Source: Melioribacter sp.
GTDB lineage: Bacteria; Bacteroidota; Ignavibacteria; Ignavibacteriales; Melioribacteraceae
NCBI GenBank assembly: GCA_003155655.1
Contig: PMDS01000123.1
Span: forward strand, 5,873-47,646
Length of the DNA stretch: 41,774 nt
Direction: 5' to 3'
The translations under genes and the position numbers were made by a program. Under the pieces are notes generated by a model that was not told where the DNA came from, ran no database searches, and worked only from the letters and a program-made list of their open reading frames with translations. Shown one piece after another: positions 10,976 to 30,448 of this stretch; within the stretch, counting starts at the first letter, position 1; every line of letters begins with the position of its first letter.

Positions 10976-12919
10976 ATGAAAAATGTCAGATCATTGCTGA
11001 TTTTATGTGTATTTGTTTTTTTTACAAATGTAATTTGTGCTGAAAGCTATTCGATAAAGAGTCCAAATGAAAAAATCAAAGTCAATTTCCGGCTTGCTCC
11101 TGATGGTAGTCCGGTATATTCCGTTTTCTATTCTGGTTCAGCAATTCTTAAGCAGTCAAAATTAGGAGTTGTTAGAAGTGATGATGATTTTACTTCCAAA
11201 TTAACAATTGATTCTGTTTCAAAAGTGAAAGTAGTTTCAGATAGTTACACATTGCTGCTCGGTAAGCGGTTGAAATGTAATTATACCGGCAACAAACAAA
11301 TCTTTTACTTAAAAAATGCGAATTCAAAAAGTATGGAAATCATTTTCCAGGTATCGAATGATGGTGTTGCATTCAGATATAATTTTCCCGGGATAACCAA
11401 ATCAATTATAGAAATTTATAAGGAAGTGACTTCATATCATTTTGATCTTTCTACAAAAGCATTTTTACAGCCTTGCCCGGACGCACGTACAGGTTGGTCT
11501 TTTTCTCAGCCTTCATATGAAGAATACTACAAATCAAATATTCCTGTTGGAACAATTTCACCGGATCAGGCGGGTTGGGTTTTGCCGGCGCTTTTTAATT
11601 ATGGAAACTATTGGATTAGTATTACCGAAACAGCAGTTGATACAAATTATTGCGGAACTCGTTTAAGTCAGTTTTCTCCTGATGGTGAATATTCTGTACA
11701 ATTTCCTCAACCGCAGGAGACTAAATCCGGCGAACCGGTTTTGCCGGAATCGCAATTGCCATGGCTTACACCCTGGCGCGTGATAGCAATAAGTGAAAAT
11801 CTTGCAGGTCTTGTTGAATCAACTTTGGAAACAGATTTAGCAATTCCCGCCAAATATGACGTCTCTTCATGGCTCAAACCGGGTGTTGCTTCCTGGAGCT
11901 GGATTATTCTTAAAGATGATTCCACAATTTATGATGTTCAGCGAAAGTACATTGACTTTGCCTCAAAGATGAATTGGAAATATTGCCTGATTGATGCATT
12001 GTGGGATACTCAAATTGGATATGAGAAAATCAAACAACTCGCAGATTATGCTAAGACAAAAAATGTGAAAGTTTTATTGTGGTATAATTCTGCCGGTGAT
12101 TGGAATACAACACCGCAATCACCACGTGACAAAATTTCTAAAAAAGAAATAAGAATTGCGGAATTCAAAAAATTATTTGAGATGGGAATTGGTGGTATTA
12201 AAGTAGATTTCTTTGGGGGCGATGGTCAGTCTATGATAAAATATTACATCGATATATTGAAGGATGCGGAAAAATATAAACTTGCTGTAAACTTTCATGG
12301 ATGTACTTTTCCAAGAAGCTGGTACAGAACTTATCCTAATCTTGTTAGTATGGAGGCAATAAAAGGAGAAGAATTTGTAACCTTTGATAATTTATATGCA
12401 AATCAGCAACCATCACATTGTGCAATTATTCCCTTTACAAGAAATCTTTTTGATCCCATGGATTTTACACCTGTAAATCTATCCGGAATACCAAATATAA
12501 AACGTAAAACCACTGGTGGATTCGAAATTGCATTGTCTGTTTTGTTCACTTCCGGAATTCAGCATATAGCTGAAACACCTTCTGGAATGGAAATGCAAAA
12601 AGATTTTGTTAAGGAGTATATGAGCTCACTACCGGAAAAATGGGATGATGTGAAATTTATTGATGGCTTTCCGGGGAAATTTGTTGTGCTTGCAAGAAAA
12701 AATGGAAACAATTGGTATATAGCGGGCATTAATGGTGAAAACACTCCTCGTAACTTAGTATTGAATATTCCTTTCGTTAATAATTCAACAAAAAGCATAA
12801 TGATAAAGGATTCGGAAAATGCAAATATTCTGGTTGAAGAAAACGTAAACTTATCCGCACCATTAAATTTAACATTACAGCCATACGGAGGGTTCGTAAT
12901 AAAGACTCTGGTAAAATAA
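10976..12919 (+). CDS. GH97 glycosidase, probably retaining alpha-galactosidase type
   Basis: A 647-residue secreted protein with GH97 layout: signal peptide ending VICAE, an N-terminal super-sandwich (about 25-280) beginning with SPNEKIKVNF, a (beta/alpha)8 barrel (about 290-550) and a C-terminal beta domain. Strand-4 motif GIKVDFFGGDGQ carries Asp411, the position used as nucleophile by retaining GH97 enzymes; Glu460-Glu466 in the MEAIKGEEF segment probably holds the acid/base. This argues against the inverting SusB-type alpha-glucosidase mechanism. Retaining members include alpha-galactosidases and a beta-L-arabinopyranosidase, both fitting a locus rich in arabinose-releasing enzymes. GAGGA sits right before the start with little spacing; AAAAGGAAA further up may assist. 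Confidence 0.85.
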   Translation: MKNVRSLLILCVFVFFTNVICAESYSIKSPNEKIKVNFRLAPDGSPVYSVFYSGSAILKQSKLGVVRSDDDFTSKLTIDSVSKVKVVSDSYTLLLGKRLKCNYTGNKQIFYLKNANSKSMEIIFQVSNDGVAFRYNFPGITKSIIEIYKEVTSYHFDLSTKAFLQPCPDARTGWSFSQPSYEEYYKSNIPVGTISPDQAGWVLPALFNYGNYWISITETAVDTNYCGTRLSQFSPDGEYSVQFPQPQETKSGEPVLPESQLPWLTPWRVIAISENLAGLVESTLETDLAIPAKYDVSSWLKPGVASWSWIILKDDSTIYDVQRKYIDFASKMNWKYCLIDALWDTQIGYEKIKQLADYAKTKNVKVLLWYNSAGDWNTTPQSPRDKISKKEIRIAEFKKLFEMGIGGIKVDFFGGDGQSMIKYYIDILKDAEKYKLAVNFHGCTFPRSWYRTYPNLVSMEAIKGEEFVTFDNLYANQQPSHCAIIPFTRNLFDPMDFTPVNLSGIPNIKRKTTGGFEIALSVLFTSGIQHIAETPSGMEMQKDFVKEYMSSLPEKWDDVKFIDGFPGKFVVLARKNGNNWYIAGINGENTPRNLVLNIPFVNNSTKSIMIKDSENANILVEENVNLSAPLNLTLQPYGGFVIKTLVK

Positions 12920-12946
12920 ACTGAATTTTTATTTTTGGATGATGAA

Positions 12947-15172
12947 ATGAAAAAAAAGATATTATTTTTATTATGCTTTTTACTTTCGTTGAATTTATTT
13001 GCGCAACAGGGTAATAGTATAAAACTTGGAAAATTGCAAACTGGTGCAACGGTTTCATTTATTAAATCTTCGGCGGGTGATTGGGGTATAGAGATCTTAG
13101 GTAGTACTGCTCCAAAGATATTACAGTGGAAACCGGCAAGAATTGATATATACGTAACTGACGAAAATATGCCCGCGCTTTCAGCGGGATATAAAACAAT
13201 TAAAAAATCTGATTCCGGACTTCTTGCATATGCTGAGATTGTTTATGGGAATGATGTAAAGTTTAATCTATATGACCAATGGAAATTAAAAGAAAATGTA
13301 ATTTCAATTAAAAGAAAAGTTGAAGTAATCGGAAACGCTCCCGGCGGATTTAACTCCTCTATCACATTAACAATCGATCCCTCTTGTCAATGGTCGGACA
13401 TGAGCTGTCTCGTACCAGGTTCATTGTATGGTGATCCTACCTACAATGGCGACCGTTCTATCGGCGGTAAGATGAACTACGACGCAAAACGTTTTATAAT
13501 GCGCGAAGATATTCTTCCTGCCCCGATGATTGCATTATTGTTTAGTAATCAGTCTTCAGTAACAATACTTAATCCTACACCGAAAGGTGAATCAACTGTT
13601 GAGGAGACAAAACTTTTAAAAAATGTAATGACTGATGAAAGATTTCAGTTCGGTTCGTTCAGTGTCTGGCAGATGGATAAAAATCCAATTGAATTTGGTT
13701 TTACTTTTCCAGGTACAATGAGCACATATCCATTTGGTCCTGGTGCATCGGCAAAGCCAAGATGGATTCGCCGCTATCATCCTATATCTCAAGGAGTGGC
13801 TCACATTTACAATATAAATTTTAGATTTGGAGCCAATGAAACGTTCCGCGGTCTTACACGAAACTCTTGGCGGTGGGCCTGGAATTTACTTAAGCCTGCT
13901 ATTACTCCTATTAATGTTGAACTTGTTCGCCGTGTTTTAACAGATCATCTTGCCTCGCAAGCAGTAACAATTGATGGCCGTACAGGAATTCCATTTGCTG
14001 TTGCTACATATGATACAAATAAAATACAATGGAACTCTACAATGACAGCGATGGGATTCGTCAGCAAAAACATTGAGTGCGCCGACCAGTTATTGCGAGA
14101 AAGCGACCGCGATAGTACCAATCGCGGAAAGAAAATGCGTCAGATAGGTTTAGGAATTATATCCTCGATGATTAATGCTCTTTCATCAATTCCGCTTCAA
14201 GCTATCGGTTATGATCTCGCAACCGGAAAACCATGGACTGGTGAAATGCAGGAATGGCTCGCACCCTACTTAAGAAACGCTACCGAAGATATGCGCGTAT
14301 TGATGCGGGCTTACCAGCGGGAACGCGCCCATGGTATTCAACACCCTGAGTGGTTCAACTGGGTTAAATCCTACGTTGACTGGCTGATTCTCCAGCAAAG
14401 AGAAGATGGTTCTTTCCCTCGTCGTTGGAAATCGGGTAGCAGTGAGGTTGCTGAGTTAACGGGAACAACAAGTTATTGTCCTGTACCTCTTCTAGTGATT
14501 TTTTATAAAGAGACTAAAAATATAAAATATAAAAATGCTGCCATCCGGGCAGCAGAATATGTTTGGAAAAATTTTGGAACCAGGGGATTGTATGTCGGTG
14601 GCGCAAGTGATAATCCAAATATCACAGACAAAGAAGCCGGGATACTAAGCTTGGAAGCTTTTCTAAGTCTCTATGAATTAAGTAAAGAACCCAAATGGTT
14701 GGAACGCTCAAAATCTGCTGCTGATTATACTGAGACCTGGATGTGGATTTGGAATCTTCCAATGCCGGTTGACGCTAATGATAAACAACTTCACTGGAAG
14801 AAAGGTGTGTCAACAATTGGATTGCAGGGAATAACTGCACGCGGCGCTGGCGGTGCAGATGAATATTTAGATTGGTCGGCTTCTTCTTACGCAAGGCTGT
14901 ACAAATACACAAATGATAAACATTATCTGGATGTTGCGAGGATTCTTTTACACAACACAAAATCAATGGTTGCTCTACCGGGACGTCTGTACGACATGAA
15001 AGGTATTGGTTGGCAGCAGGAACACTGGGGCTTGGGTCCAAGCATTCGGGGCCGGGGAGTAGGCGGACATCGCTTTTGGTTGCCATGGGTTTCAGCCAAC
15101 CATCTTTATAGTATTTCCGGGCTGGAAGAAGTTGATCCTGTATTGTTCAAGCAACTATCAAAAGGAAATTGA
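12947..15172 (+). CDS. Large secreted (alpha/alpha)-barrel protein, family unassigned
   Basis: A 741-residue protein with a signal peptide ending LFAQQ. I do not recognise its family. Residues about 20-310 look beta-rich, with sandwich-like strands and a conserved-looking region PSCQWSDMSCLVPG. From about residue 330 onward it is mainly helical, with repeated hairpin patterns (LQQREDGSFPRRW, ILSLEAFLSLYELSKEPKW, SASSYARLYKYTNDKHYLDVA) typical of six-hairpin glycosidases or polysaccharide lyases. A beta-sandwich followed by an (alpha/alpha)6 toroid is the shape of several glycosidase families. A glycine- and aromatic-rich tail (about residues 685-720) could line a sugar site. The TTG 12935 is an alternative start; ATG 12947 has GGATGA upstream. 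It sits between GH97 and a metallo-hydrolase and is probably part of the same pathway. Confidence 0.6.
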   Translation: MKKKILFLLCFLLSLNLFAQQGNSIKLGKLQTGATVSFIKSSAGDWGIEILGSTAPKILQWKPARIDIYVTDENMPALSAGYKTIKKSDSGLLAYAEIVYGNDVKFNLYDQWKLKENVISIKRKVEVIGNAPGGFNSSITLTIDPSCQWSDMSCLVPGSLYGDPTYNGDRSIGGKMNYDAKRFIMREDILPAPMIALLFSNQSSVTILNPTPKGESTVEETKLLKNVMTDERFQFGSFSVWQMDKNPIEFGFTFPGTMSTYPFGPGASAKPRWIRRYHPISQGVAHIYNINFRFGANETFRGLTRNSWRWAWNLLKPAITPINVELVRRVLTDHLASQAVTIDGRTGIPFAVATYDTNKIQWNSTMTAMGFVSKNIECADQLLRESDRDSTNRGKKMRQIGLGIISSMINALSSIPLQAIGYDLATGKPWTGEMQEWLAPYLRNATEDMRVLMRAYQRERAHGIQHPEWFNWVKSYVDWLILQQREDGSFPRRWKSGSSEVAELTGTTSYCPVPLLVIFYKETKNIKYKNAAIRAAEYVWKNFGTRGLYVGGASDNPNITDKEAGILSLEAFLSLYELSKEPKWLERSKSAADYTETWMWIWNLPMPVDANDKQLHWKKGVSTIGLQGITARGAGGADEYLDWSASSYARLYKYTNDKHYLDVARILLHNTKSMVALPGRLYDMKGIGWQQEHWGLGPSIRGRGVGGHRFWLPWVSANHLYSISGLEEVDPVLFKQLSKGN

Positions 15173-15223
15173 TAACTAATGAGACAACTTGATAAGAAAA
15201 AATATAAAGATAAGGGAATTAAT

Positions 15224-16045
15224 ATGAAAAAGATTACAACCGTTTTTGTACTCCTATCCTTATTTGGATTTTCCAATAAAATAACCGGGCAGGTATTTCA
15301 AAACAAAGATCTCACAATTACCAAATTAGAATCAAATATGTGGGTAATGGAAACTTCGGATAAAACAACGATGTATTTGATTGAAGGAACTCAAAAAGCA
15401 TTACTAATAGATACCGGAACCAGGATTGCAAAACTCGATTCTATAATTAATATTATTACTAAAAAACCTCTTGAAGTAGTGATTACTCATGCTCATGGTG
15501 ATCATGCAGGTAACATTAGCTTTTTTAATGAAATTTGGATGCATCCGGCAGATACTGTTTTGTTGAACAGGAGATACAAAGGCAAGCTTAATTTTGTAAA
15601 AGATGGATTTGTATTTGACCTTGGGGGAACTCAGATCGAAGTGAGCCATATGCCTGCACATACCCCGGGTTCGATTGTTTTACTTGATAGAAAAGCGGGT
15701 AACTGTTATTCCGGTGATGCATTTGGTTCGAATCATGTTTGGTTGCAGCTTAAGCCCCTCTCTCCAATGCAGACGTACGTAAATTCTTGTCTGAAAATGG
15801 AACAATTAATAGATAACGGAATAACAAAAATTTATTGTGGTCATTATCCATACGTTAAAAAAGCATTTGATAAATCTTACATCACAACAATGAGGCAACT
15901 GGCAGAAGGTCTTATCAACGGAACCGGACCCGAAGCACAGCCTTATTCTAATAAAGTTGGTTGCCCTAATCCGATGGCCGTAACAAGCGGTGAAGCAACA
16001 ATCGTTTTCGATCCGGATTATATAAAACAAATAAAGAATAAATAA
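15224..16045 (+). CDS. Secreted metallo-beta-lactamase-fold hydrolase
   Basis: A 273-residue protein with a signal peptide (MKKITTVFVLLSLFGF... ending ITGQ). The zinc motif THAHGDHAGN supplies His89, His91, Asp93 and His94; later ligands are in HMPAHTPGS, YSGDAFG and YCGHYPY. These mark a dinuclear MBL-fold hydrolase of the glyoxalase-II/lactonase-like branch rather than a true beta-lactamase. A secreted member in a glycan locus could hydrolyse a lactone or ester released from the substrate, but this is inference. AAGGGAA before ATG 15224 supports this start over ATG 15179, which would put 15 charged residues before the signal peptide. The decayed remains of a propeller gene follow directly. 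Confidence 0.82.
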   Translation: MKKITTVFVLLSLFGFSNKITGQVFQNKDLTITKLESNMWVMETSDKTTMYLIEGTQKALLIDTGTRIAKLDSIINIITKKPLEVVITHAHGDHAGNISFFNEIWMHPADTVLLNRRYKGKLNFVKDGFVFDLGGTQIEVSHMPAHTPGSIVLLDRKAGNCYSGDAFGSNHVWLQLKPLSPMQTYVNSCLKMEQLIDNGITKIYCGHYPYVKKAFDKSYITTMRQLAEGLINGTGPEAQPYSNKVGCPNPMAVTSGEATIVFDPDYIKQIKNK

Positions 16046-18233: not shown

Positions 18234-20972
18234 ATGTTTATGAAAGATCTTATTGTTCAAAAATATTTTGATGAACAAAAAGGTATTACCAGGCGAAGCT
18301 TCATGAAAATTGCCGGAGTTTCTGCATTATGGGCATCTTCGCTCGGTGCTTTTAATTTTAAAACAAAGGGAATTTCAATTGTTATTGATTCTTCCGATAG
18401 TACAGCCGGTTCACAACCGGCAGTGTGGGCTTTAAAGGAACTTGAGGACTCATTATTGTCCAGCGGTCTAGATGTTTATAAATGTAACTTGCTTTCCCAA
18501 GCTCGAAGAGGAGATTTTATAATTGTTGTTTTAGGATCAAATTCTTCTCTAGCAAAACAGTTATTTAAAAATGTTAAAACAAATATTCCTGCCGTACCGG
18601 AAGCACTTGGATTGGTGCCGGCTAATACAAACGATAAACATATTTTGATGGTATGCGGAAACGATGAACGAGGCCTGGTATATGCTCTGCTTGAACTTGC
18701 AGACCGTGTTCAATTTTCAAATCATCCACTTGACTCGCTGAATATTAGGGAACCAATTAATGAGCAACCCGCAAATAACATACGTAGTATCGCCAGATTA
18801 TTCGTGAGTGATGTTGAAGATAAATCCTGGTTTTATGATCGTGAGATGTGGCAACATTATTTAACAATGCTGGCTACGCATAGATTTAATCGTTTCAATC
18901 TTAGTTTTGGAATTGGGTATGACTTCCTACAGAATGTGACTGATGCTTATTTTCTTTTCGCTTATCCTTTCTTTTTATCCGTTCCCGGATATAATGTAAG
19001 AGTGCCGCAATTGCCTGATACAGAACGGGATAAAAATCTAGAGACATTAAAATTTATCAGTGAGCAAGCGGCAGAAAGAGGTATACAATTTCAATTGGGA
19101 ATCTGGATGCACGGATATGAATGGCTAAATAGTCCGAATCCTAATTATACTATTGAAGGACTGACACAAGAAACCCATGGCCCTTATTGCCGCGATGCCA
19201 TTCGAATTCTGTTGCAGGCATGTCCATCAATAAGCGGGGTCACTTTCCGGATACATGGAGAGAGTGGTGTAAATGAGGGTAGTTATAATTTCTGGAAAAT
19301 GGTATTTGAAGGAGTAGCTACTTGTGGACGTAAAGTTGAAATCGATATGCATGCAAAAGGTATGGATCAGTCAATGATAGATGTTGCTTTAGGAAGCGGA
19401 ATGCCGGTTAACATTTCTCCCAAATACTGGGCTGAACATCTTGGTTTGCCATATCATCAAGCAGACATTCGGACATTTGAAATTCCTAAGCCTGACCAAT
19501 CAGCTTCCGAATTAATGAAGCTTAGTGCTGGTTCACGAATTTTTATGCGATACGGCTATGGTGATCTTTTAAAGGAAAACAGGAATTATGGAGTGTTGCA
19601 TCGAATATGGCCGGGAACTCAGCGTCTGCTTTTATGGGGCGATCCTTTAACGGGTTCGGCACATTCAAGAGCCTTTGGTTTTTGCGGAAGTGGGGGAGTT
19701 GAATTAATGGAACCGCTTTCTTTTAAAGGTCGCCGAGGATCCGGTATTGCTGGAGATCGTTGCGGTTATTTAGATTCATCATTAAAACCAAAATGGGATT
19801 GGGAAAAGTATATTTACAGTCTTAGAATTTTTGGAAGACTTTCTTATAATCCAAATACGGAACCAGAGGTATGGCACCGGTATCTGGACAAGGAGTTCGG
19901 TGAAGGGGCTAAAGATTTTGAGCTAGCTCTCGCAAATGCTTCACGCATTCTTCCTCTAGTACTGACTGCTCATGGCGTATCAGCTGCTAACAATCTGTAT
20001 TGGGTTGAGATGTACACAAATTTATCAATAGTAGACCGGGAAAACAAAAATCCATTTTTTGATACGCCATCACCTAAGGTTTTCGGTAATGTCAGTCCAA
20101 TGGATCCACAACTTTTCTTGAGAATTAACGATTTTGCCGGTGAATTATTAAAAGGTCCAAGAAGCGGTAAATATACTCCAATCGAAGTTGCACAATGGAT
20201 TGAAGATTATTCTAATATTGCAGCCAAAAACTTAGCTCTTGCAAAAACCAATTCGAAAAGTAAACTAAAACCGGAATTTCGCAGGATGTTTATTGATATT
20301 TCCATCCTGGTTGGACTAGGTTATTTCTTTGCAGCAAAATTTAGATCAGGAGTTCTTTACGCGATATTCGAACAGAGCGGCGATCGTTCAGCACTTGAAT
20401 TATCTTTAAAAATGTATAAAGAAGCTAGAAATCACTGGTCTAAACTTGCCAACTATGCAAAGGATTTTTACAAATCAGATATTACAATTGGTGAAGATGC
20501 AGTGATCCGAGGCCATTGGTTGGATAGATTACCTGCTATTGAAGCAGATTTAGAATTGATGGCTAAAAAACTTGAAGAAACAAAACAAACAAAAATCACA
20601 GAACATGCGAATGTGAAATCTATTATTCACGAAGTATTGGTTCGCCCAGTTCGCACTACTTCGAATTGTAGCCATGAACAACCAAAATATTTTGAAGCCG
20701 GAAAACCTCTTGATCTTGATTTATCAATTGAGAAAGAAATTCAATTAGTACGATTGTACTATCGCCATGTAAATCATGCAGAGCGATTTAGAGTTTTGGA
20801 AATGAAGAAGAGCGGTAAACATTTTAAAGCTAAGGTACCAGCTGATTACACAGATTCACAGTATCCTCTTCAATATTATTTTGAGATAATTGAACCTAAA
20901 AATGCATGGTTGTACCCTGGCTTTTCGCAAGATTTAACAAATCAACCATATTTTGTTGTGCGTAAGACTTAG
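18234..20972 (+). CDS. Tat-exported glycosidase-like protein, family unassigned
   Basis: A 912-residue protein (ATG 18240 is an equal alternative start). The N-terminus carries a twin-arginine signal, ITRRSFMKIAG followed by a hydrophobic stretch, the only Tat signal in the window. Residues about 45-165 form an alpha/beta domain (VWALKELEDSL ... NDERGLVYALLELADRVQF) like the N-terminal domains that precede GH67 and GH20 barrels. Residues about 180-520 look like a (beta/alpha)8 barrel (ATHRFNRFNLSFG, GITFR-like strand VTFRIHGESG, EIDMHAKGMD). Glu in FRIHGESGVNEG is a possible catalytic residue. A helical part and a C-terminal E-set-like domain (about 795-905) follow. A glucuronidase-like role would fit a glucuronoarabinoxylan locus, but I cannot assign a family. 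Confidence 0.6.
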   Translation: MFMKDLIVQKYFDEQKGITRRSFMKIAGVSALWASSLGAFNFKTKGISIVIDSSDSTAGSQPAVWALKELEDSLLSSGLDVYKCNLLSQARRGDFIIVVLGSNSSLAKQLFKNVKTNIPAVPEALGLVPANTNDKHILMVCGNDERGLVYALLELADRVQFSNHPLDSLNIREPINEQPANNIRSIARLFVSDVEDKSWFYDREMWQHYLTMLATHRFNRFNLSFGIGYDFLQNVTDAYFLFAYPFFLSVPGYNVRVPQLPDTERDKNLETLKFISEQAAERGIQFQLGIWMHGYEWLNSPNPNYTIEGLTQETHGPYCRDAIRILLQACPSISGVTFRIHGESGVNEGSYNFWKMVFEGVATCGRKVEIDMHAKGMDQSMIDVALGSGMPVNISPKYWAEHLGLPYHQADIRTFEIPKPDQSASELMKLSAGSRIFMRYGYGDLLKENRNYGVLHRIWPGTQRLLLWGDPLTGSAHSRAFGFCGSGGVELMEPLSFKGRRGSGIAGDRCGYLDSSLKPKWDWEKYIYSLRIFGRLSYNPNTEPEVWHRYLDKEFGEGAKDFELALANASRILPLVLTAHGVSAANNLYWVEMYTNLSIVDRENKNPFFDTPSPKVFGNVSPMDPQLFLRINDFAGELLKGPRSGKYTPIEVAQWIEDYSNIAAKNLALAKTNSKSKLKPEFRRMFIDISILVGLGYFFAAKFRSGVLYAIFEQSGDRSALELSLKMYKEARNHWSKLANYAKDFYKSDITIGEDAVIRGHWLDRLPAIEADLELMAKKLEETKQTKITEHANVKSIIHEVLVRPVRTTSNCSHEQPKYFEAGKPLDLDLSIEKEIQLVRLYYRHVNHAERFRVLEMKKSGKHFKAKVPADYTDSQYPLQYYFEIIEPKNAWLYPGFSQDLTNQPYFVVRKT

Positions 20973-24545: not shown

Positions 24546-24648
24546 TTGGTTAAAAGGATGAGTAATACATACGGATTTTTACAAGGCAAAGCAGCCTTGA
24601 AGCCTAATCCGGACAATAATAAAAATAAATATTCACAAAAAACAAACT

Positions 24649-24652
24649 GGAG
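24649..24652 (+). promoter_or_regulatory. Ribosome binding site GGAG for ATG 24660
   Basis: GGAG lies seven bases before ATG 24660, where a standard signal peptide starts. This supports the short form over longer in-frame starts at 24546 and 24558. Confidence 0.5.
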
Positions 24653-24659
24653 AATTAAA

Positions 24660-25313
24660 ATGAAAACATCAATCACGTTTCTTTTGTTATTAGTATTAAG
24701 TATCGTAGTTAATGCTCAAAAACTGGATGGCAATTGGAAAGGTAAAATGACTACGCCTAATGGGGATATGGAATTGCTTTTCACTTTTAAAGTAGATGCA
24801 GCAGTATTAACCGGAACTGTTAAATCGGAAATGGGAGCCATACCAATTGAAAATGGAAAGGTTAATGGTAATAACTTTTCATTTGATATAAATGCTAATG
24901 GCCAGGTTATTAGCAATACCGGTGTTCTCGATGGTAATATTGTTAAACTCACTGCACCGATGATGGAAAAACCATTGGAATTAACCAGAGTTGAAGAAAA
25001 ATCCAAAATTGAAGAAAAATCCAAAATTGAAGGGAAATGGATTGGCAAAGCTACCAGCCCACAGGGAGAATTTGAATTAACTTTTACCTTTAAAGTAGAT
25101 GGCGAAAAATTAACCGGGAAAAATTCATCTTCTATGGGTGAAATGGATTTGACCAATGGAGTAGTAAACGGGAATGATTTTTCGTTTGATATTGATATGC
25201 AAGGGATGAAGATTACTCATAAATGCAAATATCTTGCTGACGATACGATTGAATTAAAAGTCAATGTAATGGAGCAGGACATGGTAATGAAATTAACTAG
25301 AGCTGCCCAATAG
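24660..25313 (+). CDS. Small secreted protein with two tandem beta-rich repeats
   Basis: A 217-residue protein with a signal peptide (ending VVNAQ) and two similar domains: about residues 21-110 and 124-217. Each opens with a G-x-W-x-G-K motif, continues with P-x-G-x-x-E-L-x-F-T-F-K-V-D and L-T-G, and contains a G-x-V-N-G-N-x-F-S-F-D-I segment. The pattern suggests eight to ten antiparallel strands per repeat, like a small lipocalin-type barrel. The domains are joined by a charged linker in which EEKSKI occurs twice. No catalytic motif is visible. Similar single-domain proteins occur beside secreted hydrolases in related bacteria; a binding or accessory role is possible but unproven. It follows the second GH43 copy by about 114 bases. 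Confidence 0.75.
   Translation: MKTSITFLLLLVLSIVVNAQKLDGNWKGKMTTPNGDMELLFTFKVDAAVLTGTVKSEMGAIPIENGKVNGNNFSFDINANGQVISNTGVLDGNIVKLTAPMMEKPLELTRVEEKSKIEEKSKIEGKWIGKATSPQGEFELTFTFKVDGEKLTGKNSSSMGEMDLTNGVVNGNDFSFDIDMQGMKITHKCKYLADDTIELKVNVMEQDMVMKLTRAAQ
24993..25028 (+). repeat. Perfect 18-base tandem repeat (two copies) inside the two-domain protein
   Basis: The unit GAAGAAAAATCCAAAATT occurs twice in a row (24993-25010 and 25011-25028) and encodes EEKSKI twice in the linker between the two domains. The exact identity points to a recent slippage duplication that keeps the frame. Confidence 0.9.
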
Positions 25314-29380: not shown

Positions 29381-30448
29381 ATGAAATTTGCAGTTAAAAT
29401 CATATACATAATAAGTCTGTTGCTAGTTATTAATCTATCAGCACAAGAGACAATTGATGTAGGCAAAACGGGATGGGATGTAAAGAGACCCTTAATGGCT
29501 GCGGCCTGCGAAAGCGGATGTCCCTGGGGCGAACTTGGAGATTTTGTAAAGGAATCGATGAAACCTTTTGGATATTCGGTAATACTTTGCCGTAATTGCA
29601 ATAGATGGTATGGACCGCAACTTGTTTCAGAGAACGATTATCCGCCTAAGCTTGATGAAATAAATCTTGAAGATGGCGTTAATGTTCGTGTTAACGCAAA
29701 AGTTGATTTTGGTGTAACATCAAGTGCGATGCTAAGCTCAGCTTATAATAATACTCTATCAGGAAAGGGACCTTACCGGAATCTTCGACTCATTGCTAAA
29801 ATTGAGGATCCATTTTATTATTTGGTTGCAACAATGAAAGAATCCGGAATCAAGGATTTCTTACAAATCAAACAACAGCATCTGCCTGTAAGAATTATGG
29901 GAGGTGATGCTAACATGATAACAATTTTAAAATATTACGGCATTTCTCCTGAGGATATTAAATCATGGGGAGGGAAAATTGGAGTTTCAGTTGAAGAAGC
30001 ATTAAAAGGTGAATTTGATATTGTTGCGGGTTTCCTTGCCAGTCCGGCATTGAATCCGGAATCATCTTACTGGACATCGTTAAGTCAAAAATTTGATCTG
30101 TATTTTTTAGAATTGCCGGAAGACCTTTTGAAATTAATTGCCAGGCAAAATGTTGATGCTGAGGTAGTAGAAGCTCATCATAGTTTACTGAAGGGAATTA
30201 AACGTAGAATAAAGACTCTTGGCAGATCAGGAGAAGCGATTTTTGCACGTGATGATATGCCTGAACAAGCGGCTTACGATCTGGCAAAAGCAATCGATGA
30301 AAATCATGGCGCGTTAAAATGGTTTATCAGGGTGTATACATACGATCCTAAAACTGTCTGGCAAAATTATGGAGTGCCATTGCATCAAGGTGCGGAGAAG
30401 TATTACAGAGAAGTAGGATATATGAAGGATGAAAATAAACTTAAATAG
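29381..30448 (+). CDS. Orphan TAXI-type solute-binding protein with four N-terminal cysteines
   Basis: A 355-residue secreted protein (signal peptide ending NLSAQ). The C-terminal signature PLHQGAEKYYREVGY, together with DFGVTSSAM and YDLAKAID, places it with TAXI-type binding proteins of TRAP transporters. TAXI proteins normally begin their mature part with a Gly/Thr-rich ligand loop; here that place holds AAACESGCPWGELGDF, followed by CRNCNRWYG. Cys43, Cys47, Cys70 and Cys73 could form disulfides or bind a metal. No TRAP membrane subunit is present in the window, and the gene sits between a carboxylesterase and a GH27 gene. It may bind a carboxylate such as ferulate or a uronate released by its neighbours, which is inference. 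Confidence 0.72.
   Translation: MKFAVKIIYIISLLLVINLSAQETIDVGKTGWDVKRPLMAAACESGCPWGELGDFVKESMKPFGYSVILCRNCNRWYGPQLVSENDYPPKLDEINLEDGVNVRVNAKVDFGVTSSAMLSSAYNNTLSGKGPYRNLRLIAKIEDPFYYLVATMKESGIKDFLQIKQQHLPVRIMGGDANMITILKYYGISPEDIKSWGGKIGVSVEEALKGEFDIVAGFLASPALNPESSYWTSLSQKFDLYFLELPEDLLKLIARQNVDAEVVEAHHSLLKGIKRRIKTLGRSGEAIFARDDMPEQAAYDLAKAIDENHGALKWFIRVYTYDPKTVWQNYGVPLHQGAEKYYREVGYMKDENKLK

Follow-up and report, generated by a model that had tools for sequence, protein, structure and literature searches.

A conserved exported two-domain protein in a glycosidase block of Melioribacter sp., a candidate exo-glycosidase of an undescribed six-hairpin family

Within the window, i.e. the whole stretch of 41,774 nucleotides of Melioribacter sp. 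DNA analysed here, the gene at 12947-15172 (the query) encodes an exported protein that is best read, as judged against Pfam, NCBIfam, the PDB and keyword searches of the literature, as a member of an undescribed family inside the known six-hairpin superfamily. Its open reading frame (ORF), upstream of whose ATG an alternative in-frame TTG start lies at 12935, is a real, conserved gene and more than a chance ORF, because relatives are encoded at 11 loci of public genomes and in one further genome.

12947..15172, plus strand: query gene, 741-residue exported protein (741 codons plus stop), ATG start at 12947, TGA stop at 15170-15172
12947..13006, plus strand: likely Sec signal peptide, residues 1-20, judged by eye, cleavage approximate
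13016..13843, plus strand: N-terminal β-sandwich domain, residues 24-299, from the AlphaFold2 model
13844..15160, plus strand: C-terminal (α/α)6 toroid, residues 300-738, from AlphaFold2, with VIA-align Z 18.6-22.1 and 19.1-21.9

Domain anatomy and distribution

The full-length AlphaFold2 model, built from 12 sequences (mean predicted local distance difference test, pLDDT, 67.2; predicted template modelling score, pTM, 0.70; pLDDT below 50 at 231 of the 741 residues), has 19 strands within residues 24-295, followed by helices from 300 to 738. A β-sandwich followed by an (α/α) barrel, as proposed in an earlier note on this DNA, is thus borne out, the anatomy of β-sandwich then (α/α)6 toroid being supported at moderate confidence. 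Folding the toroid alone (pLDDT 63.0, pTM 0.76) did not improve model confidence over full length.

In a Foldseek comparison of the full-length model ranks 1 and 2 were taken by entries of polysaccharide lyase (PL) family PL27 (E 1.1e-6 and 2.0e-6, TM-score 0.30-0.35), followed by the glycoside hydrolase (GH) family GH94, GH116, PL26, GH63 and others; galactose-mutarotase-like rows presumably match the N-terminal sandwich, match ranges being absent from the table. The toroid-only model gave zero rows below E 0.001. Among the rows listed by VIA-align Z ranged from 18.6 to 22.1 for the full-length model (top root-mean-square deviation 3.7 over 308 aligned residues) and from 19.1 to 21.9 for the toroid-only model, which places the toroid in the six-hairpin (α/α)6 superfamily (Z up to 22.1; domain alone up to 21.9). 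GH88, GH76, AGE-type epimerases, a DsbH-domain protein and others score alike, so that the fold singles out no function; GH154, GH142 and GH121 are missing from the rows listed, an absence that does not exclude them.

Relatives 35-77% identical to the query occur in at least six bacterial phyla. The 11 public genome contigs with tblastn-confirmed relatives (best segment 41-76% identical) are titled Calditrichaceae, Calditrichaeota, BMS3Abin03, KSB1, Bacteroidales, Bacteroidetes, Opitutus, Terriglobus albidus, Neomarinimicrobiota and two more bacteria; the further genome, from among relatives of the host, encodes a relative 62% identical, and a Deinococcus aetherius plasmid record one that is 38% identical over 96% of the query. 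Whole genomes seldom encode the core family, which is present in 2 of 57 genomes related to the host (the other two of four matches are short toroid matches) and in 4 of 395 genomes of the host's phylum, one of these relatives (L019; L and G numbers are our handles for loci and genomes) being only 26% identical; 23 of the 395 match at E 0.001, the rest beyond the core being weaker and partial. The counts are 2 of 297 in the phylum of G431 (30 match at E 0.001), 4 of 288 in that of G427 (9 match at 1e-20) and 4 of 40 in that of G423, and no query relative was found in the viral contigs scanned. Both annotated relatives that we looked at carry the label 'hypothetical protein'.

Relation to known families

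The family comparison covered Pfam, NCBIfam, PDB sequences and structures, and hidden Markov model (HMM)-HMM alignment of chosen families. Searched against Pfam at E up to 10, the query reached no cut-off; the best score was that of GH127 with 21.2 bits (cut-off 24.9; best stretch 26 residues), and pectic acid lyase (14.8, cut-off 22), C5-epimerase (14.4, cut-off 23.3) and GH76 (14.4, cut-off 25.9) also scored below theirs. PF07470 (GH88/GH105) was not listed at E up to 10, nor was PF10022 (GH154/DUF2264), HMMER filters dropping weak matches. The NCBIfam search gave one irrelevant weak match only, and a single-sequence PDB search five chance-level matches (best E 0.96). A 16-member profile yielded 16 PDB matches, with short ones to GH76, YihS and others (best E 3e-4), and a wide profile of 13 diverse members yielded 42, including GH76 structure 4bok (E 3e-11, best stretch about 75 residues). 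The PDB sequence matches to the query family are short helical-repeat stretches; the GH142/GH121 structures 5mqr and 6m5a (named in PMC7263609), whose presence in the PDB set was unchecked, are not among the 5, 16 and 42 matches. Thus, Pfam, NCBIfam, the PDB and the GH154 profile gave no confident match of the query to an existing family, the finding by which the earlier note would have been overturned.

The HMM-HMM comparison that the earlier note had recommended was made with a core and a wide alignment. The probability for GH88 was 12% with the core alignment (over 70 columns) and 70% with the wide alignment (over 71 columns), that for GH127 40% and 95%, and that for a six-protein set weakly picked up by the GH76 model 96% with both. 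For DUF2264, its side comprising only 2 sequences, 0.1% was obtained with either alignment, on which ground a GH154 identity was rejected. DUF2264 itself matches the GH154 structures 9o4u and 9nwf (named dehydratases) and 8oi4 (named β-galactosidase); all three are present in the PDB set and none is among the query-family sequence matches. A counterpart of the NNW segment that belongs to the GH154 active-site set (PMC12269599) was not seen in the 16-row alignment, positions being unmatchable without alignable homology. A PL27 identity, suggested by the Foldseek ranking, was likewise rejected as it found no sequence support: 5no8 and 5nok are not among the PDB sequence matches. In the fold comparison the toroid alone reaches PL27 with VIA-align Z 20.4 at rank 18 (models with pLDDT 67 and 63). 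A B. finegoldii relative beside a GH88 gene, suspected to be PL27, gave no PDB match at E up to 0.001.

Two core relatives, both 37-38% identical to the query, count against a flat statement that no family matches, since L135 lies above the Pfam GH127 cut-off (31.0 bits, best stretch 28 residues) and L134 above that of GH76 (32.0 bits, residues 470-618); they are two of the eight relatives Pfam-scanned in that set. In a separate set of six relatives none exceeded any Pfam cut-off, L018 scoring 21.2 bits for GH76. We read these crossings, together with the HMM-HMM scores, as kinship within the six-hairpin superfamily. The earlier note's candidate for a new glycosidase family stands in part: the query is over no Pfam or NCBIfam cut-off, but it need not be a glycosidase, since PL27 lyases have the same architecture and GH154 is now reported as a glucuronate dehydratase (excerpts of PMC8377490 and PMC12269599).

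Invariant residues, gene company and predicted function

Residue conservation was examined at 55 positions, counted wherever covered, in a MAFFT alignment of 34 sequences, i.e. 23 core sequences (among them the query, the 26% relative L019 and two short fragments, L010 and L014) together with 11 far members collected at E 1e-15.

13427..13429, plus strand: Tyr161 of the PGxxY motif, N-terminal domain; 21/21 covering core, 11/11 far
14609..14611, plus strand: Asp555, candidate active-site acid; 22/22 covering core, 11/11 far
14627..14635, plus strand: Asp561-Lys562-Glu563, with D561 and E563 as candidate acids; each 23/23 core, 11/11 far
15020..15022, plus strand: Glu692, candidate general base, last inter-hairpin loop; 22/22 covering core, 11/11 far

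New in this analysis is the invariance of Y161, D555, D561, E563 and E692 in the core and in 11 far relatives. P157 (20 core, 11 far), Y161 (21, 11), G625 (23, 11), G688 (22, 11) and W714 (22, 11) are invariant residues other than acids. In a separate diverse alignment, A5, in which six of the 11 far members are 15-19% identical to the query, D561 is kept in 12 of 13 rows (Asn in L026). D638 is kept in 23/23 core and 9/11 far sequences, Lys562 in 22/23 and 9/11 (31/34 overall), and position 492 is Arg in 21/22 core sequences and Arg or Lys in 9/11 far ones (30/33 overall), while conservation of R443 (22/22), Y510 (20/22), K618 (21/23), H669 (22/22) and H708 (21/22) is confined to the core. The far members were chosen with the core profile, and this choice accounts in part for the invariance of D555, D561 and E563; the matched stretch leaves out Y161 in 8 of the 11 and E692 in 7, so that the invariance of these two is largely independent of the selection. 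No known catalytic motif was recognisable in the query, in agreement with the earlier note.

A subgroup of far relatives (L123-L127, L045, L046; 633-853 residues) carries the motifs PxxxYxGN, A(I/L)DxxxxDKE and G(S/A)QxE. None of the five Pfam-scanned is over a cut-off and the two PDB-searched gave no match at E up to 1; judged by its sequences, the subgroup is another unnamed family with the same acids.

The gene lies inside a GH block, as the earlier note had stated. A Pfam scan of all 26 window ORFs of at least 150 residues named GH127, GH97, GH39, GH31, Melibiase_2 (GH27-type) and Alpha-L-AF_C arabinofuranosidase (GH51-type) genes, in addition to four GH43 genes and many esterase, SASA and carboxylesterase genes; none of the 26 is GH88.

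10976..12919, plus strand: GH97 gene (Pfam), directly upstream of the query, 27-base gap
15179..16045, plus strand: metallo-β-lactamase-fold gene directly downstream of the query (Pfam Lactamase_B)
18234..20972, plus strand: 912-residue protein, distant α-D-galacturonidase relative (NCBIfam NF049878, PDB BPa0997)

The only NCBIfam model listed for the GH97 gene is 'retaining alpha-galactosidase' (213.5 bits vs a cut-off of 800). The 912-residue protein matches NF049878 with 6.6e-19 (67.5 bits vs a cut-off of 1300) and BPa0997 with 8e-5, and no Pfam family; it is possibly a uronate-removing GH of a new subfamily, related to an α-D-galacturonidase family that we take to be GH138. A 70% identical homologue adjoins the query homologue in L006 and a 27% identical one lies two genes away in L132.

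The scan of core neighbourhoods covered 16 besides the window and used a GH88 profile as well as probes drawn from the window and its relatives, L076 and L077 being counted as one genome and L008, L010, L014 and L015 being short contigs. An esterase or SASA gene is present in 11 of the 16 (L005, L006, L007, L008, L009, L011, L012, L013, L014, L075, L077), GH97 in five (L005, L006, L007, L009, L013) and a GH27-type gene in two (L005, L076). Pfam also names GH67 in L005 and L006, a GH54-type gene in L011 and GH3 in L006 and L076, and the second-subclade member L135 sits among GH127, GH27-type, GH2 and GH43 genes. Of the ORFs that the probe scan labelled GH3 or GH54, only those that Pfam names are used here. 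GH88/GH105 was found in none of the 16, and a GH88 partnership of the core genes was rejected on this basis. Genome-wide, GH88 is over cut-off in 14 of 16 genomes with the query gene (none in G427 and G017) and is so common that presence at genome level says little.

Several further genes were noted in these neighbourhoods. A 255-residue protein at 24546-25313 has no family over cut-off; the stretches of L005, L006 and L007 that hold the query homologue hold homologues of this protein too, L006 at two places. At 29381-30448 of the window, inside the glycosidase block, lies a protein that resembles the solute-binding subunits of TAXI-type TRAP transporters (63.7 bits against a cut-off of 84.35; Pfam NMT1_3). 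A PETase-like (PF12740) esterase is found upstream of the query homologue in four loci, in two by Pfam and in two by similarity (L007 6893-7834, L012 6989-7915, L011 and L075). The Deinococcus aetherius plasmid cluster (L041 8880-22133) holds a query relative in which a signal peptide is not apparent. With it lie genes for a sugar ABC transporter, an SDR, an FAD oxidoreductase, a KDPG aldolase, an FGGY kinase close to xylulokinase (368.2 bits against a cut-off of 380.25) and a PTE-family protein close to phospho-furanose lactonase (195 bits against a cut-off of 630). The cluster resembles a sugar-acid or pentose route, and the hint that it gives of a pentose product is too slight to rely on.

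We favour, with a probability of about 0.57, that the query is an acid-catalysed exo-glycosidase acting on (glucurono)arabinoxylan side chains. The protein would be secreted or periplasmic, its β-sandwich supporting the toroid and carrying Tyr161 on a loop towards the toroid mouth, and the substrate, which from the gene company we infer to be a capped (glucurono)arabinoxylan side chain, would bind in a pocket of inter-hairpin loops. E692 in the last loop (pLDDT <50 in the full-length model) could be the general base, as is the Glu at the corresponding position in GH63, GH78 and GH37, a correspondence drawn from chain order, and one of D555, D561 and E563, on the loop that precedes hairpin five, could be the general acid. 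The outcome would be hydrolysis, most likely inverting, and GH97/GH27-type α-galactosidases, GH43/GH51-type arabinofuranosidases, GH67 and esterases would be partners in trimming. Three grounds favour a hydrolase: the persistence of three or four carboxylates and one Tyr down to about 15-20% identity, an architecture shared with several inverting glycosidases, and the absence, from the company of the core genes, of the uronyl hydrolases on which lyases and dehydratases rely.

Several observations weigh against the exo-glycosidase, a function predicted from sequence, model and gene company. The fold match that ranks first over both domains belongs to a lyase. The loops around 158-172, 552-560 and 672-713 are modelled at pLDDT <50, so that a pocket shared by them is hypothetical, and the site is not purely acidic, the basic position 492 and Lys562 being nearly as well kept. 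The acids could instead be ligands of a metal or of the substrate, or could have a structural role, as a helix N-cap at DKE. Crowding of the conserved residues on one toroid face was tested and is not significant, as the 40 invariant columns observed in inter-hairpin loops were reached by 59 of 439 circular shifts, with loop limits from the low-confidence model. The origin of the neighbourhood probes favours window-like company; L074 has a weak GH43 neighbour only and L041 no such company, and GH88 occurs in 2 of the 9 far neighbourhoods scanned (L042, L082).

The GH88 genes of two far neighbourhoods and the fold match (5no8, E 1.1e-6) also speak for the main rival, a uronate-acting lyase or dehydratase that would take the C5 proton from a (methyl)glucuronate side chain and expel the substituent at position 4, which is rhamnose in PL27 and water in GH154. 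This we consider unlikely, though it has the most in its favour among the alternatives: PL27 and the query have their domain order in common (excerpts of PMC8377490), a toroid 'glycosidase' family can consist of dehydratases, as GH154 illustrates (excerpts of PMC12269599), GH67 in two core loci and the galacturonidase-like neighbour speak for it, and lyase-type residues are kept, namely Arg492, Lys562, Tyr510 (20/22 core) and, in all, Tyr161. Yet the TM-score to PL27 is only 0.30-0.35, PL27 structures are not among the PDB sequence matches and GH154 is unsupported, Tyr510 is kept by none of the 11 far members (Phe in 8), and GH88/GH105, which would clear the unsaturated product, is absent from all 16 core neighbourhoods and not over cut-off in 2 of 16 genomes.

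Somewhat less probable still, and compatible with the other readings, is membership in a recently created CAZy family, as Pfam and NCBIfam lack many new GH and PL families; keyword searches of part of the literature showed, among the papers listed, none recognisable as describing this family. It is doubtful that the core family eliminates capped or 4-O-methylated glucuronate from xylan as a lyase or demethoxylating dehydratase sequence-unrelated to PL27 and GH154, using the carboxylate-rich site with Tyr161 and Lys562/Arg492 and passing the unsaturated product to an enzyme other than a linked GH88/GH105. Least probable is a sugar epimerase, isomerase or other non-hydrolytic six-hairpin enzyme (AGE, YihS or AprG-like): VIA-align Z values of about 19-22 to YihS, mannose isomerase, cellobiose 2-epimerase and AprG are about those to glycosidases and a short profile match to YihS has E 0.0009, but this match spans 30 residues of helical repeat, AGE-type catalysis uses histidine while no His is among the columns kept in at least 12 of 13 diverse members, and these enzymes are not known to have a large N-terminal sandwich.

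In summary, the query is a well-conserved cross-phylum protein whose gene often neighbours those of xylan-debranching enzymes and of esterases. As a glycosidase it would be the founder of a family and fill a gap in the dismantling of decorated xylan; as a lyase it would extend the recent finding that some toroid 'glycosidases' are dehydratases. A few point mutants for a direct test of the mechanism follow from the invariant residues.

Comparison with named systems

GH88/GH105 unsaturated uronyl hydrolases have a toroid like that of the query (Z 19.0-22.1) and are not known to have the large N-terminal sandwich. The GH127/GH146 β-L-arabinofuranosidases also have a toroid, with weak profile similarity to the query, and a GH127-type gene lies in the window; in GH127, unlike in the query, the toroid comes first. 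GH127 and GH146 have catalytic zinc-bound cysteines, GH127 using a zinc-bound Cys, whereas the query has no invariant Cys (none of its five across 16 alignment rows). The GH76 α-1,6-mannanases have a toroid and give the best PDB profile match of the wide alignment, which covers one or two hairpins only; they are not known to have an N-terminal domain comparable to that of the query. GH154 (DUF2264), too, has the toroid fold. Its glucuronate dehydratases act on glycans (excerpts of PMC12269599).

The PL27 L-rhamnose-α-1,4-D-glucuronate lyase (BACCELL_00875, PDB 5no8, 5nok) is the best two-domain Foldseek match and has the same order of β-sandwich then (α/α)6 as the query model (excerpts of PMC8377490), but it is without sequence match to the query (TM-score 0.30-0.35). 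GH63, GH78, GH37, GH94, GH121 and GH142 enzymes have a toroid as in the query, in most with a β-sandwich (excerpts of PMC7263609); GH94, GH63 and GH116 are among the Foldseek rows of the query, and none of the six families was recognised among the query-family PDB sequence matches. The same excerpts describe the toroid enzymes of GH121, GH63, GH37 and GH78 as relying on a small number of conserved acids, of which the base occupies a common position, a conserved Glu being found at this or a corresponding position in GH63, GH78, GH37 and GH121. The query differs from these enzymes in that its acid-rich loop, as placed by the low-confidence model, precedes hairpin five and lies outside the A' region between helices 5 and 6.
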